Below are positions 17,145 to 41,026 of a stretch of DNA of 64,000 bases, one piece after another. A program made the translations under genes and the position numbers. The stretch is from Halarcobacter ebronensis (GTDB lineage Bacteria; Campylobacterota; Campylobacteria; Campylobacterales; Arcobacteraceae). Location: NCBI RefSeq assembly GCF_013201825.1, contig NZ_CP053836.1, positions 1,364,001-1,428,000 on the forward strand. The letters are read 5' to 3'. The notes under the pieces were generated by a model that ran no database searches, was not told where the DNA came from, and was given only the letters and a program-made list of their open reading frames with translations. Numbering within the stretch: the stretch's first letter is position 1; each line of letters begins with the position of its first letter.

Positions 17145-19118
17145 TTAAAAGTTTTCCCAATCATCATTATCTTTTTCGTCTTTGATATTTTCTTTTTGTA
17201 TTGTGGTTTTTGACTTTTCTTTTGTCTCTTTCTCTTTTTTATTTTTTTTAGCTACAACATTATCTTTCCCTCTAAATTCTTTTTTATTGGCATCATTTAC
17301 TATAAATTTAGCTATTTGATCTGTTAAGCTTGCAATATCTTGTGTTTCAGATGCAATTATTGCATTTTCTTGTGTTTGCTGATCCAATTGATTTACAGCA
17401 ATATTTATTTGTTCTATTCCAGAAAGCTGTTCTTTTGAAGCATTTTCAACATCAGAGATTAGATTTGTTGTTTCTTGGATATCTTCATTTAATATTTTAT
17501 ATCCTTTTATCATCTCATCTGCAATATTTTTCCCATCATTAGCTTTATTTGTTGCATTTTCTACTAATGATTTTATTTCACTTGCAGCTTCAGCACTTCT
17601 AGATGCTAAGTTTCTAACTTCCCCTGCAACAACAGCAAAACCTTTTCCTGCTTCACCTGCCGTTGCCGCTTCCACTGCTGCATTTAAACTTAGAATATTC
17701 GTTTGGAAAGCTATTTGGTCTATTACACTTATAGCTTCACTTATTGCAGCAACTTGTATATTTATATCTTCCATTGCTAATGTTGTGTCATTTGCTAGTT
17801 TTTCACCTTTATTCGCTGATTCAGTTACTCCAACTGAAAGTTGAGACATTTTTGCTATGTTTTCTGTATTACTTCTAATATTACTTGTTATCTCTTCTAA
17901 AGCTGCTGCCGTTTCTTCAAGTGAACTTGCTGCTTCATTGGAACTTTTATTTAATTTATCTACATTATTTAGTAAACTATTTGAGCTTTTTTCTAGTGTT
18001 AAACCATTTGATTTATTTTCCACTAACATTTCAGTTATCGAATCGCCTAAATTATTTACTCCAGAGGCAAGTTTTAAAAGATGTTCTTTTAATCCTTTTG
18101 TAGATATTTTGTTTAAATAGTTATATGAAGAGTATTGTTCTACAATATCTAATACATTATTAATATTATTTTCTAGATTATCTGCCATTTTATTTAATAC
18201 ATCTTTTAGCTGCATTAAAGCTGGATTTGATACATTTAAATCTAATCTTTGCACTAAGTCACCTTGTTCAAATTCCCCTAATACTGCAATAGTTTCATCT
18301 ATTAATTTCCTATCTTCTTCTATACCCTTTTCAGTTTTTTCAATATTTTCATTTACTACTTTTGCCATACTGCCAAATTCATCTGATGAATCGATTTCTA
18401 TCAATTTTACTTCTGCTATCTCTCGATTTAAGTATTTAAAGAATGCTATTAATCCTATTTGGAATCTATTTAGTTTATTAACAATCTCTTTAATAATAAG
18501 AAAAGCTGTTCCAATTCCTAATATAAGTGCTGCAACAATAATCACAAGAACCATTGTTTTTGCATCTTCATATTCGATATCTCCTCTTTCACTAGCTTTT
18601 TGTCCACCTTTAATATTCATTTCAACCAATTTAAGCATCTCAGAAGAGTATTTATTAAATGAAGATTCCCCTTCTTGTAAAATTTTCATTGCTTCTTCTG
18701 TCTTATTTTGTCTCGAAACCTTTAATAGGTGTTCATTTATTTTTAAATAATTGCTAAACTCTTTTGAGAACATATCATATACATCTTGCTCTTCAGAAGA
18801 AGAAATTAATTTTTCATATATTGCACGATTTTTTTTGATAGTATTTAATACTTCTGCCATTTCATCTTCTGCTTTTTTCATATCTTCTGGAGTTTGTGAT
18901 AATACATGTAAGTATTCTGTAATACGTAGATCAGAAGTATTAGTATTAATCTCTTCTACCACTTTGATACTTGGCATCCAATTATTTGACATTATTGATG
19001 ATTCTTCATTTATCATGCTCATTCGTTGTAAAGAAATAAATCCAAGTACACCAATTAGTACTAAAACAATTCCAAAACCTAAACTTAATTTTGTAGTGAT
19101 TTTTATATTTTTAAACAT
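17145..19118 (-). CDS. Methyl-accepting chemotaxis protein with C-terminal DWENF tether
   Basis: 657 residues from the ATG at 19118, whose ribosome site is the GGAG 4 codons upstream; the ATG at 19130 contains that site and is less likely. Layout: TM1 (about 7-27), periplasmic four-helix-bundle sensor (30-185), TM2 (about 188-210), a cytoplasmic linker with HAMP-like helices, then the signalling domain. The hairpin tip is [21 protein letters not shown] long Lys/Glu-rich flexible tail ends in DWENF, the W-x-x-F pentapeptide class used in enterobacterial Tar/Tsr (NWETF) to tether CheR. A kinase-like gene lies just upstream on the same strand (63 bases), so both may share a promoter. Ligand unknown. 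Confidence 0.95.
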
Positions 19119-19180
19119 ATTTTTCTCCATCTTTATTCTTATATTTATTATTAGAAATAAAATTAAATAATTTGATTATA

Positions 19181-19867
19181 TTATTCAATGCTACTTAAGT
19201 GAATACAAACCTCAATTCCATAGACACTTTTCCCTTTAAATTTAAACTTTTTATTTGCTATTTTTATCTCTCCTTTATAATATTCTTCAATAATCTTTTT
19301 TGATATATGTAAACTAATATCTAAGGGAATCTCATCAACAGTGACATTAGTACTTTTAAATGTAATGATAGTTTTGTTTTTATTTGTTTGCGTATTAATT
19401 ACTACAAGTTTAGATTCACTCTTATTTTTTAGAACATTTATTAATGACTTTAAAATATATAGAAATATTTTCGATAATTCATTTTCATAACCAAAAATAT
19501 AAATAGTAGTAAAATAATCAGTTTCAATAGAGATATTGTATTTTTTATAAATAGAAGTGTAGGAAGATACTATATTTTGTAAAGTATTATTAATATTAAA
19601 TTGTTTGATTTCTTTTCTATCCCATAAAAAAGTCTCAAAGGAGTTAATAGTATTTATTATTGATGCAATATTTTCATTTATTGAAACTAAGGTTTCATTA
19701 TACGTAGCTTCTGTAACCAAACCATATTCACTGTTAACTAAAGTCCCTGATGACATAGTATATATTTTATTTAATTTAGTTTTCCATTCATTTATTGCAT
19801 GTGTAATTTCATCAGCTAATTGTAGAATTCTATAATTTTTTTCAGTAAATAAATCATTTTTATTCAT
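19181..19867 (-). CDS. Degenerate histidine-kinase-like protein without sensor domain
   Basis: 228 residues with no membrane segment. Residues 14-110 look like a dimerisation helix pair resembling Arcobacter-type kinases (H-x-W-R-x-P-L box), here altered to EITHAINEWKTKL with H23. Residues ~130-225 resemble the ATPase domain: ENELSKIFLYILKSLINVL at the N-box position and HISKKIIEEYYKGEIKI followed by a GIEVCIHL end strand. The Asn pair expected in the N-box (normally NLINNA) reads LKSLIN, and no clear DxGxG box is seen. So it is probably a catalytically dead or diverged kinase, perhaps a scaffold or regulator for the adjacent receptor. Confidence 0.65.
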   Translation of the reverse strand: MNKNDLFTEKNYRILQLADEITHAINEWKTKLNKIYTMSSGTLVNSEYGLVTEATYNETLVSINENIASIINTINSFETFLWDRKEIKQFNINNTLQNIVSSYTSIYKKYNISIETDYFTTIYIFGYENELSKIFLYILKSLINVLKNKSESKLVVINTQTNKNKTIITFKSTNVTVDEIPLDISLHISKKIIEEYYKGEIKIANKKFKFKGKSVYGIEVCIHLSSIE

Positions 19868-19932
19868 AGAGATCTTTTAATATCATTTTTCATCTAGCTA
19901 TTATTGTATCTTACTACTATATACGATATCTA

Positions 19933-19946
19933 TATCCTATAGGATA
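19933..19946. promoter_or_regulatory. Palindromic operator, distal copy
   Basis: TATCCTATAGGATA, a perfect 14-bp palindrome 66 bases upstream of the kinase-like gene start. The same core recurs at 20062 and as a half-site at 20165. Confidence 0.65.
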
Positions 19947-20061
19947 AATTATTTGTATTTATTATAAAAATATTAAGAATTACTAATGTATTAAATATAT
20001 AAAAAATTATAATAAAAAGTATTTTGTATATGAAATAGTGTTTTATATTTTGAATATTTGA

Positions 20062-20079
20062 TTTATCCTATAGGATAAA
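20062..20079. promoter_or_regulatory. Palindromic operator, proximal copy (18 bp perfect)
   Basis: TTTATCCTATAGGATAAA, a perfect 18-bp palindrome ending 21 bases before the TATAAT box of the XRE gene, so a bound protein would cover the -35 region. Confidence 0.7.
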
Positions 20080-20100
20080 GATAAAAAAAAACTCTAAGTA

Positions 20101-20106
20101 TATAAT
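20101..20106 (+). promoter_or_regulatory. -10 box for the XRE regulator
   Basis: TATAAT 75 bases before the ATG at 20182; no -35 consensus, that position being next to the 18-bp palindrome. Confidence 0.5.
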
Positions 20107-20164
20107 AGTAATTTCTGTTTAGATATCTATACTCTAATTCTCTACAGTTTTAATAAAAGTTTTT

Positions 20165-20174
20165 ATAGGATAAA
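20165..20174 (+). promoter_or_regulatory. Operator half-site over the XRE ribosome site
   Basis: ATAGGATAAA repeats one arm of the palindromes and includes the AGGA that serves as ribosome site for the ATG at 20182. Confidence 0.5.
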
Positions 20175-20181
20175 TAAAATA

Positions 20182-20430
20182 ATGAATATTTTTACTAACT
20201 CAACCCAATGTGAGGTTGATTTTTTTCATAAAAGAATATCAAAAAATATTAAAAAAATAAGATTAGAAAATAACTTAAAGCAGTTGGATGTGGCATTAGA
20301 AATAGGGATTAACTCAGTTGCATTTTATTCAAATTGTGAGAACTGTAAATATGGAAAACATTTTAATTTAGGACATATTTATAAGATAGCAAAGATTTTT
20401 AATATTGAACCTTACGAATTGTTAAAATAA
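20182..20430 (+). CDS. Small XRE-family HTH regulator
   Basis: 82 residues, almost all one Cro/C1-type helix-turn-helix: KRISKNIKKIRLENNLKQLDVALEIGINSVAFYSNCE, then HFNLGHIYKIAKIFNIEPYELL. It carries Cys at positions 9, 47 and 50 of the protein (the latter two as CENC), so redox or metal sensing is conceivable, though not shown. Two perfect palindromes and a half-site with a common TATAGGATA core lie in its 314-base upstream region, which it shares with the divergent kinase-like and chemoreceptor genes. The simplest reading is an autoregulated repressor controlling both directions. Confidence 0.88.
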   Translation: MNIFTNSTQCEVDFFHKRISKNIKKIRLENNLKQLDVALEIGINSVAFYSNCENCKYGKHFNLGHIYKIAKIFNIEPYELLK

Positions 20431-20500: not shown

Positions 20501-21010
20501 TTACCCCATTGCAGATTTTGTTGCAAAAATCACTATTCCTATAGCAAATAATAAAACTATCAAGGTTGAAACAATTTTATAAAAAGAGAATTTTATAGTG
20601 ATATTTTCATTATTTTTTGCTTCGAGATTATTATATTTAACACATAAATAAATTAAAATAAATCCTATAAAAGTGCTTATAACCTCTATAAGAAAAAGAG
20701 TTGATGGCATAGTTACAGGACTTGTTGGAAAGATTTTTAATAAATCAAATAGATATACAAGAATATAAAGCAAAGCAAAAAGAGCACTTAAAACTATAGA
20801 ATACTTTTTCCTTTTGGCAACCAAAAAAGCCACAATAAAACTAAGAAGCCCCAATATGGTAAGAAAGATGTTAAACAAGGCTAAAACGGTTTCACTGTAG
20901 TGAGAGAAGTCTCTTGTTTCTACTGGACCACCTGGAACTAGGATTGTAAGTAATATAGATAAAAGAACTAATAAAAATGAGATAATATAATGTATTTTTT
21001 TTAAAATCAT
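20501..21010 (-). CDS. Hypothetical multi-pass membrane protein
   Basis: 169 residues with about five hydrophobic helices (roughly 7-27, 42-66, 72-92, 103-124 and 146-164). No charged catalytic motif or known family signature is seen; a GGPVETRDFSHYSE stretch between the first two helices is the only distinctive polar segment. ATG at 21010 with AAAGG upstream. It lies alone, between the XRE gene and a divergent PEBP gene. Function unknown. Confidence 0.72.
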   Translation of the reverse strand: MILKKIHYIISFLLVLLSILLTILVPGGPVETRDFSHYSETVLALFNIFLTILGLLSFIVAFLVAKRKKYSIVLSALFALLYILVYLFDLLKIFPTSPVTMPSTLFLIEVISTFIGFILIYLCVKYNNLEAKNNENITIKFSFYKIVSTLIVLLFAIGIVIFATKSAMG

Positions 21011-40498: not shown

Positions 40499-40590
40499 TA
40501 TTTAATCCTTTTTTGAATTAAACTTATTGAATCAGGGCCAATATGTAAGTAATACGAAATTATTAAATTAACAGTAGTATAACTTTTATA

Positions 40591-40723
40591 TTCTCTTTCA
40601 TCCAGACTTTAACTGTTGGTTTTGGATTTGCACCAAATCTGCTTGACCTTTACATTTGTAAAGCGCTCGTGGACTTCTATAAAGTATAGTTACCACCAGT
40701 AAGGAATTTCACCTTGCCCTGAG
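40591..40723 (-). promoter_or_regulatory. FMN riboswitch (RFN element)
   Basis: Reading the minus strand, the conserved RFN blocks appear in order: AGGGCAAGGTGAAATTCC, then ACTGGTGGTAA, AAGTCCACGAGC, a variable stem, then GATTTGGTGCAAATCC, AAAACCAACAGT and AGTCTGGATGAAAGAG. Its 3' end is about 90 bases upstream of ribB. FMN binding is expected to lower ribB expression. Confidence 0.95.
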
Positions 40724-41026
40724 AAATAAATTTATAAAATTATAACTAAATTTCACTTAGAAAAGAGAAGAAAATTATTTTTTAATAAGAAAGTAGATTT
40801 GTTTTTAGATATTACTCTAAATTATATACTTAATAAGTTATTTATAATTAATAATTAATAAAAATCAAGCTAATATGCAGTGAAAATAATCTTACAAGGT
40901 CTATTCGAAAGTAGTTCTATAAAAATAATAATTTATAACTAACTTTGATTATATAATCTAAACTTATTTACAAATTATTTTTTTTAAGTATTTTTATTGT
41001 GATTGTAAAATAGCTGGGAGAATTAA
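40724..41026. other. Intergenic region upstream of the third chemoreceptor
   Basis: 303 AT-rich bases with the divergent promoters of the riboswitch transcript and the receptor. A GGGAG before the GTG at 41027 is the ribosome site. No gene or clear repeat seen. Confidence 0.45.

Follow-up and report, generated by a model that had tools for sequence, protein, structure and literature searches.

To investigate whether a small XRE regulator of Halarcobacter ebronensis acts on its own gene and on its divergent neighbours through the palindromes that lie between them, we analyzed a window of 64,000 nucleotides (the whole stretch of DNA under study) and compared it with the rest of the genome and with related genomes. 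An earlier sequence-only reading had placed palindromes at 19933 and 20062 and a half-site at 20165 between the XRE gene and a divergent kinase-like gene, and these coordinates were confirmed (Table 1). As it had claimed, the half-site (20165-20174) covers the Shine-Dalgarno AGGA of the regulator gene, which lies at 20167-20170, 11 bases 5' of the ATG at 20182; the distal copy is 66 bases from the divergent gene's ATG (19867); the 18-bp copy abuts the -35 position that follows from the TATAAT at 20101-20106, a presumed -10 element that a sigma-70 scan of the + strand does not list as a promoter; and the 82-residue protein carries a CxxC (C52-E-N-C55, encoded by the ORF at 20182-20430). Beyond this, the reading proposed that the regulator represses itself and the divergent receptor/kinase-like genes, possibly by a redox or metal cue.

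Table 1. Features of the regulator locus, in window positions
Feature	Position	Strand	Basis or remarks
Chemoreceptor (MCP), 661 aa, presumed second target	17145..19130	-	Pfam MCPsignal 131.8 bits, 4HB_MCP_1 102.4 bits; downstream of kinase-like gene
Kinase-like protein, 228 aa, presumed target	19181..19867	-	Asn in place of catalytic His, no glycine boxes; nothing above Pfam cut-off
Operator O1 (predicted), perfect 14-bp dyad TATCCTATAGGATA	19933..19946	no strand	Sequence; also in G062, G063
Operator O2 (predicted), perfect 18-bp dyad TTTATCCTATAGGATAAA	20062..20079	no strand	Adjoins regulator's promoter; relatives share the 18-mer
TATAAT, presumed -10 of regulator gene	20101..20106	+	Sequence; aligned with TATAGT of G032
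Operator O3 (predicted), right half-site only ATAGGATAAA	20165..20174	+	Contains Shine-Dalgarno AGGA; alignment with G032
XRE regulator, 82 aa	20182..20430	+	ORF translation; Pfam HTH_3; relatives in other genomes

According to Pfam, the regulator is a bare XRE domain: it matches PF01381 (HTH_3) at 25.2 bits, above the cut-off of 23, and so has the HTH_3-type DNA-binding domain of XRE / Cro-C1-type regulators, while PF12844 stays at 27.1 bits, below its cut-off of 30.2. Its recognition helix is INSVAFYSNC (residues 43-52). An NCBIfam scan at E 0.001 returned no family matching it, and HipB-type models of that collection gave generic weak matches in some relatives and none for the window protein. 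The co-directional toxin gene expected of type II antitoxins (HipB, HigA) was not found at the locus, where the gene 3' of the regulator is convergent (20501-21010, minus). When aligned with the intact kinases of G084 and G085 (MHQWKQPL), the divergent kinase-like protein has Asn in place of the catalytic His and lacks the ATP-binding glycine-rich boxes; a search of its own genome at E 1e-5 gives 27 matching places, counting the protein itself, and in G068 the kinase-like gene is interrupted by 8 stops and the regulator frame is broken. Two further features of the window concern RNA. A terminator-like hairpin with a T-tract lies at 20200-20219, within the first codons of the regulator gene, and was rejected as a conserved attenuator: G062 and G063 keep the stem and not the T-tract, and the other relatives folded lack it. 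The sole Rfam match in the window at gathering score is an FMN riboswitch (RF00050, 115.2 bits, 40586-40730, minus).

The palindrome is rare in the genome. The exact 14-mer TATCCTATAGGATA occurs twice in the whole 3.17-Mb single-contig genome, of which the window is G000:C1:1364001-1428000, both times at the window locus. Allowing up to two mismatches, the window contains 2 matches, both of them exact, against a shuffle mean of 0.40 (5 of 100 shuffles reach 2). Across the genome, one mismatch adds two places (reversed control, 2 forward and 2 reverse strand matches), and a 16-mer with up to two mismatches finds 7 (control, 4 strand matches each way); since sites with two mismatches are near control frequency, we give weight only to exact or near-exact sites. 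One of the one-mismatch sites, TAACCTATAGGATA at 92231, lies 6 bp 5' of the ATG of a paralog, the one other relative listed for this genome, and occupies its ribosome site; the paralog adjoins a Nitro_FeMo-Co protein and a ferredoxin and has a divergent chemoreceptor. The other, TATCTTATAGGATA (L004:1501-1514, G000:C1:1272404-1272417), lies 5 bp before a Gp49-like gene, which is followed by an addiction-module antidote gene. Beyond the paralog's site and this toxin-antitoxin site we found no wider regulon in the genome at the exact or one-mismatch level. This search for random occurrence of the palindrome across the genome did not refute the proposed regulation. An operator-like site starts a Gp49-like toxin/antidote pair in two genomes (this one and G072:C5, L124:6512-6525), with no XRE regulator beside it; such sites may be convergent operators or cross-talk.

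Relatives of the XRE protein are widespread. We found them in 75 of 104 genomes of its taxonomic family (E 1e-4), and a 22-member profile at E 1e-8 matched in 189 of 397 Campylobacterota genomes and 46 of 68 genera, weak matches possibly including other XRE proteins. Related named records are from Arcobacter, Aliarcobacter and other Campylobacterota, and plasmids of Aliarcobacter faecis, A. cryaerophilus, Sulfurimonas aquatica and Sulfuricurvum kujiense are among the named carriers; of nine such records, the five checked are annotated as helix-turn-helix regulators. The palindromes accompany these proteins. In the 104 genomes, TAWCCTATAGGATA gave 44 strand matches (reversed control, 13) at 26 distinct places, 24 of which lie at most 350 bp upstream of a relative by their coordinates; of the two exceptions, one falls within a 250-aa ORF (G052) and one precedes a toxin-antitoxin-like pair (G072). 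The 18-mer occurs in 17 stretches of GTDB r220, and all six from Campylobacterota are upstream of a relative; none was found near the other 11. The pattern TWATCCYATAGGATAWA gave 80 strand matches in 55 of the 397 phylum genomes (control, 3). Inspection of 20 of its otherwise unexplained loci showed a relative in 10, the coding end of one conserved gene in 8 (...YPMG-stop, other strand), a sensor-like gene in one (G058) and a contig edge in one. The 8 coding-end loci, at which no RNA family or tRNA was found, were rejected as operators, so the pattern alone overstates the operator count; we accordingly give less weight to the phylum-wide count, and the odds of repression are unchanged. In G058, TTATCCCATAGGATAAA (L302:533-549, G058:C5:123432) lies 27 bp before a sensor-like gene, with the same-class regulator on another contig, and is a possible trans target.

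In many relatives the sites come as a spaced pair. For each of 101 loci we took the highest-scoring pair of similar dyads with a spacing of 51-59 bp in the upstream DNA and compared it with 20 shuffles; seven rows had been dropped beforehand (the fragment L087, the duplicates L146, L157, L158 and L159, and second starts of L239 and L240). All 20 shuffles were beaten at 68 loci, with spacings of 55 (28 loci), 56 (23), 54 (6), 53 (4), 57 (3), 58 (2) and 52 bp (2), and in 57 of these 68 the centre of the proximal dyad lies 10-16 bp before the start. Among 40 copies added later, 20 beat all shuffles with spacings of 52-57 bp; overall, 53 of 141 loci fail. The right half of the proximal dyad contains AGG, GGA or GAG in 55 of the 60 cases centred 8-18 bp before the start, and the distal dyad is the better palindrome in 39 of 68 loci, equal in 20 and worse in 9. 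In 35 aligned promoters of the sub-class (spacing 55/56), ATTnTA (TAnAAT on the other strand) is found some 18-20 bp inward of the distal dyad, and TAnAGT precedes the proximal dyad by about 20 bp; these may be the -10 elements of two overlapping back-to-back promoters. A divergent neighbour is present at 89 of 107 regulator genes as called by a simple ORF caller; the gap measures 70-140 bp in 55 cases (median 106). Pfam assigned 17 of 30 such divergent genes, picked with a bias to longer ones, to signalling (chemoreceptors, GGDEF/EAL, kinases, PAS, response regulators and HDOD) and three to TerD, TerB and HSDR_N, leaving 10 unmatched.

The window locus departs from this layout. Together with G062 and G063 it fails the 55-bp pair test, and compared with G032, which passes, these three have their promoter and proximal site separated by about 39 more bases and keep only the right half of the proximal site, while O2 is perfect and a further perfect site, O1, lies close to the divergent gene. 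By this alignment O3 appears to correspond to what in relatives is a full proximal dyad, and the window locus to be a derived three-site variant within a broad set of privately coded repressors.

Half-site sequences vary from one sub-class to another together with the recognition helix: GGATA goes with IKSVAFYSNC, GGTTA with FTTATFYTNA, GGTGAA or GCTGAA with FNSVSFYCDC, GTAGTT with NKSVSLVSAC, GGGAATA with HKSVSMVSKI and ATCGTT with MSGGAYLGRA. In 88 copies with a pair, chosen from DNA alone and with relatedness controlled only partly, operator distance correlated with helix distance at r 0.646 and with distance in the rest of the protein at 0.505; partial correlations were 0.51 for the helix given the rest and 0.23 for the rest given the helix, and 0 of 1000 permutations were as high. 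Two plasmids of A. cryaerophilus, pACRY43158 and pCNAC48, provide the strongest single argument that the palindromes are the regulator's sites. Between the two, 543 of 549 aligned bases agree in the divergent gene, 273 of 276 in the next gene along and 176 of 180 in the convergent gene, whereas the regulator is identical at 152 of 250 and the intergenic region at 74 of 101, and the operator pair TTTATCCCATAGGATAAA and TTTAACCTATAGGATAAA gives way to ATTCACCAAAAGGTGAAT and ATTAACCAATAGGTGAAA. The neighbour has thus stayed the same while the regulator and both operators were exchanged. Two arrangements of relatives were also observed. In L088 (G085:C7), two relatives lie in tandem beside kinase-like genes (at about 6973 and 7396) with differing operator codes, as if one had been placed ahead of the other, and in three genomes the sub-class QRGNAFFNYA (L122, L120 and L121) lies between a chemoreceptor and a Nitro_FeMo-Co/ferredoxin pair, with TAACCTATAGGATA on its ribosome site.

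These data bear on other ways of reading the locus. The cue suggested by the sequence-only reading, in which the CxxC would bind metal or form a disulfide and so release the DNA, is not supported and is quite unlikely. The window protein and those of G062, G063 and G068 have both C52 and C55, but the two occur together in only 14 of 101 relatives; position 55 in the sub-class (n=50) is N in 27, C in 11, L in 8, V in 2, T in 1 and R in 1; and Cys52, although invariant there (50/50), is within the recognition helix, so that DNA contact or packing explains its invariance. Conserved sensing cysteines like those of thiol/metal-sensing regulators are thus not seen. We consider it very improbable that another protein binds the palindromes, for example the antitoxin of a Gp49-like/antidote pair, with the XRE gene merely one of its targets: a pair of this kind does follow TATCTTATAGGATA in this genome, and a similar one follows TATCCTATAGGATA in G072, but a third-party binder predicts neither operators that change with the XRE helix nor operators swapped with the XRE gene, and both are seen. 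Chance palindromes in AT-rich DNA, which 5 of 100 window shuffles could be taken to allow, have next to no probability, as the exact copies, their conservation, their association with relatives and the co-change with the helix already contradict them.

By analogy with Rco of pLS20, a dimer at O2 could instead activate one of the two promoters, the regulator's or the divergent one, when its level is low and repress when it is high. O2 adjoins the -35 position and distal dyads are more often the better palindromes, both of which would suit such a switch, but in relatives both presumed -10 elements have a dyad some 20 bp downstream, a position at which binding would block, and we regard activation as unlikely. 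Local repression of the regulator's own gene and the divergent gene through a private operator code remains the reading we favour, at a probability of roughly 85%, given the association of the sites with relatives (in the 104 genomes and in GTDB r220), the paired dyads, the plasmid swap and the helix-operator correlation. On these comparisons the palindromes are very likely the window regulator's own operators, and the repression that the sequence-only reading had proposed is the natural interpretation, with sites nearly only beside relatives and changing together with the helix. Which gene is controlled we infer from position, and dimer binding, repression over activation and promoter positions are likewise inferences; binding of the palindromes as a dimer is putative for the window protein, in keeping with their presence and co-variation with the helix.

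Several known systems resemble this one. Among solved structures, the profile of the relatives comes closest to SinR (2.2e-6), followed by C.BclI (3.5e-6) and CylR2 (1.3e-4). SinR and CylR2 are small repressors of nearby promoters and, as a type, the closest solved relatives of the window regulator by profile; unlike them, it has no SinI-like partner or cytolysin genes, and in alignments its family has extra residues around helix 3 and the KHFN segment. The restriction-modification controller proteins (C.BclI, C.Esp1396I and C.Kpn2I) are likewise small XRE dimers of about 80 aa that bind dyads and act on their own gene and a neighbour, and C.Kpn2I is reported to sit by overlapping divergent promoters and to block elongation of its own transcript (PMC6237814). 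In contrast to C proteins, the present family has operators about 55 bp apart and varied neighbours; no restriction-modification genes were recognised near the window gene (five ORFs by Pfam, and ORFs of 15-26 kb read), and one relative, L112, has a divergent HSDR_N protein. Rco of pLS20 is reported to act at overlapping divergent promoters from two operators of one repressor, activating at low and repressing at high level (PMC4207663); it controls conjugation genes as a tetramer with looping, whereas the window family has single short dyads and no looping evidence. A large-scale survey of XRE motifs reports palindromes upstream of XRE genes in 223 motif clusters; its main text contains no Campylobacter, Helicobacter, Arcobacter or CTATAG, and the window motif may be among these clusters (PMC12565409). 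Our literature search, with subscription papers mostly and bioRxiv preprints wholly outside its reach, found no description of the family or its operator, and a full-text search for four motif strings matched 205 papers, with only CCTATAGG occurring among the 20 matches listed.

The likeness to phage CI/Cro immunity regions lies in the exchange of a repressor gene and its cognate operators as a block, with specificities differing at one locus. Unlike those repressors, this family has non-phage neighbours and no close phage relatives: we found no protein relative in IMG/VR, and an Aliarcobacter relative used as query found none in INPHARED. Matches in PHROG were confined to generic repressors (the window protein's best being 3.3e-7), and a 16-mer search of viral sequence matched 17 stretches. 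We tentatively raise the idea, on balance doubtful, of a non-phage, phylum-wide counterpart of immunity regions, in which a repressor and two operators are exchangeable cassettes that diversify into private DNA codes, with same-code copies tending to be kept apart because in one cell they would silence each other's targets. A sample of 100 copies from 42 genomes of the family, 27 of them with more than one copy, contains 57 distinct 10-residue helix strings, and none of its 120 within-genome pairs shares at least 7 of 10 helix residues, where permutations give a mean of 11.4 such pairs (sd 3.4) and 0 of 2000 reach so low a count. This count and the block swap on plasmids speak for the idea. 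Against it, one copy per orthologous group gives the same count, the sample omits copies (2 of 11 matches sampled in G050, 8 of 9 in G085, 7 of 8 in G031, 4 of 8 in G029 and 3 of 7 in G012), and G351, outside the sample, has two copies of the same sub-class and hence of the same code.

Under local repression, a dimer of the XRE protein would bind the dyad TATCCTATAGGATA. In the usual layout of the family, one dimer would sit at the start of the regulator's transcript, over the ribosome site, and a second near where the divergent gene begins, at a distance of about 55 bp; together they would block the two overlapping back-to-back promoters, keeping the neighbour low and setting the regulator's own level. 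In the window lineage this layout would have been rebuilt, with O1 near the divergent gene, O2 by the promoter and the half-site O3 on the ribosome site. If this is true, the locus would give access to a broad regulator family, of which we found no description, in a phylum that includes pathogens and nitrogen fixers. Because the operators lie beside each regulator, pairs of regulator and target could be recognised in the DNA sequence. Chemoreceptors, cyclic-di-GMP enzymes and kinases make up many of the divergent genes to which a name could be given. The family would also be a natural data set for shifts in the DNA specificity of helix-turn-helix proteins.
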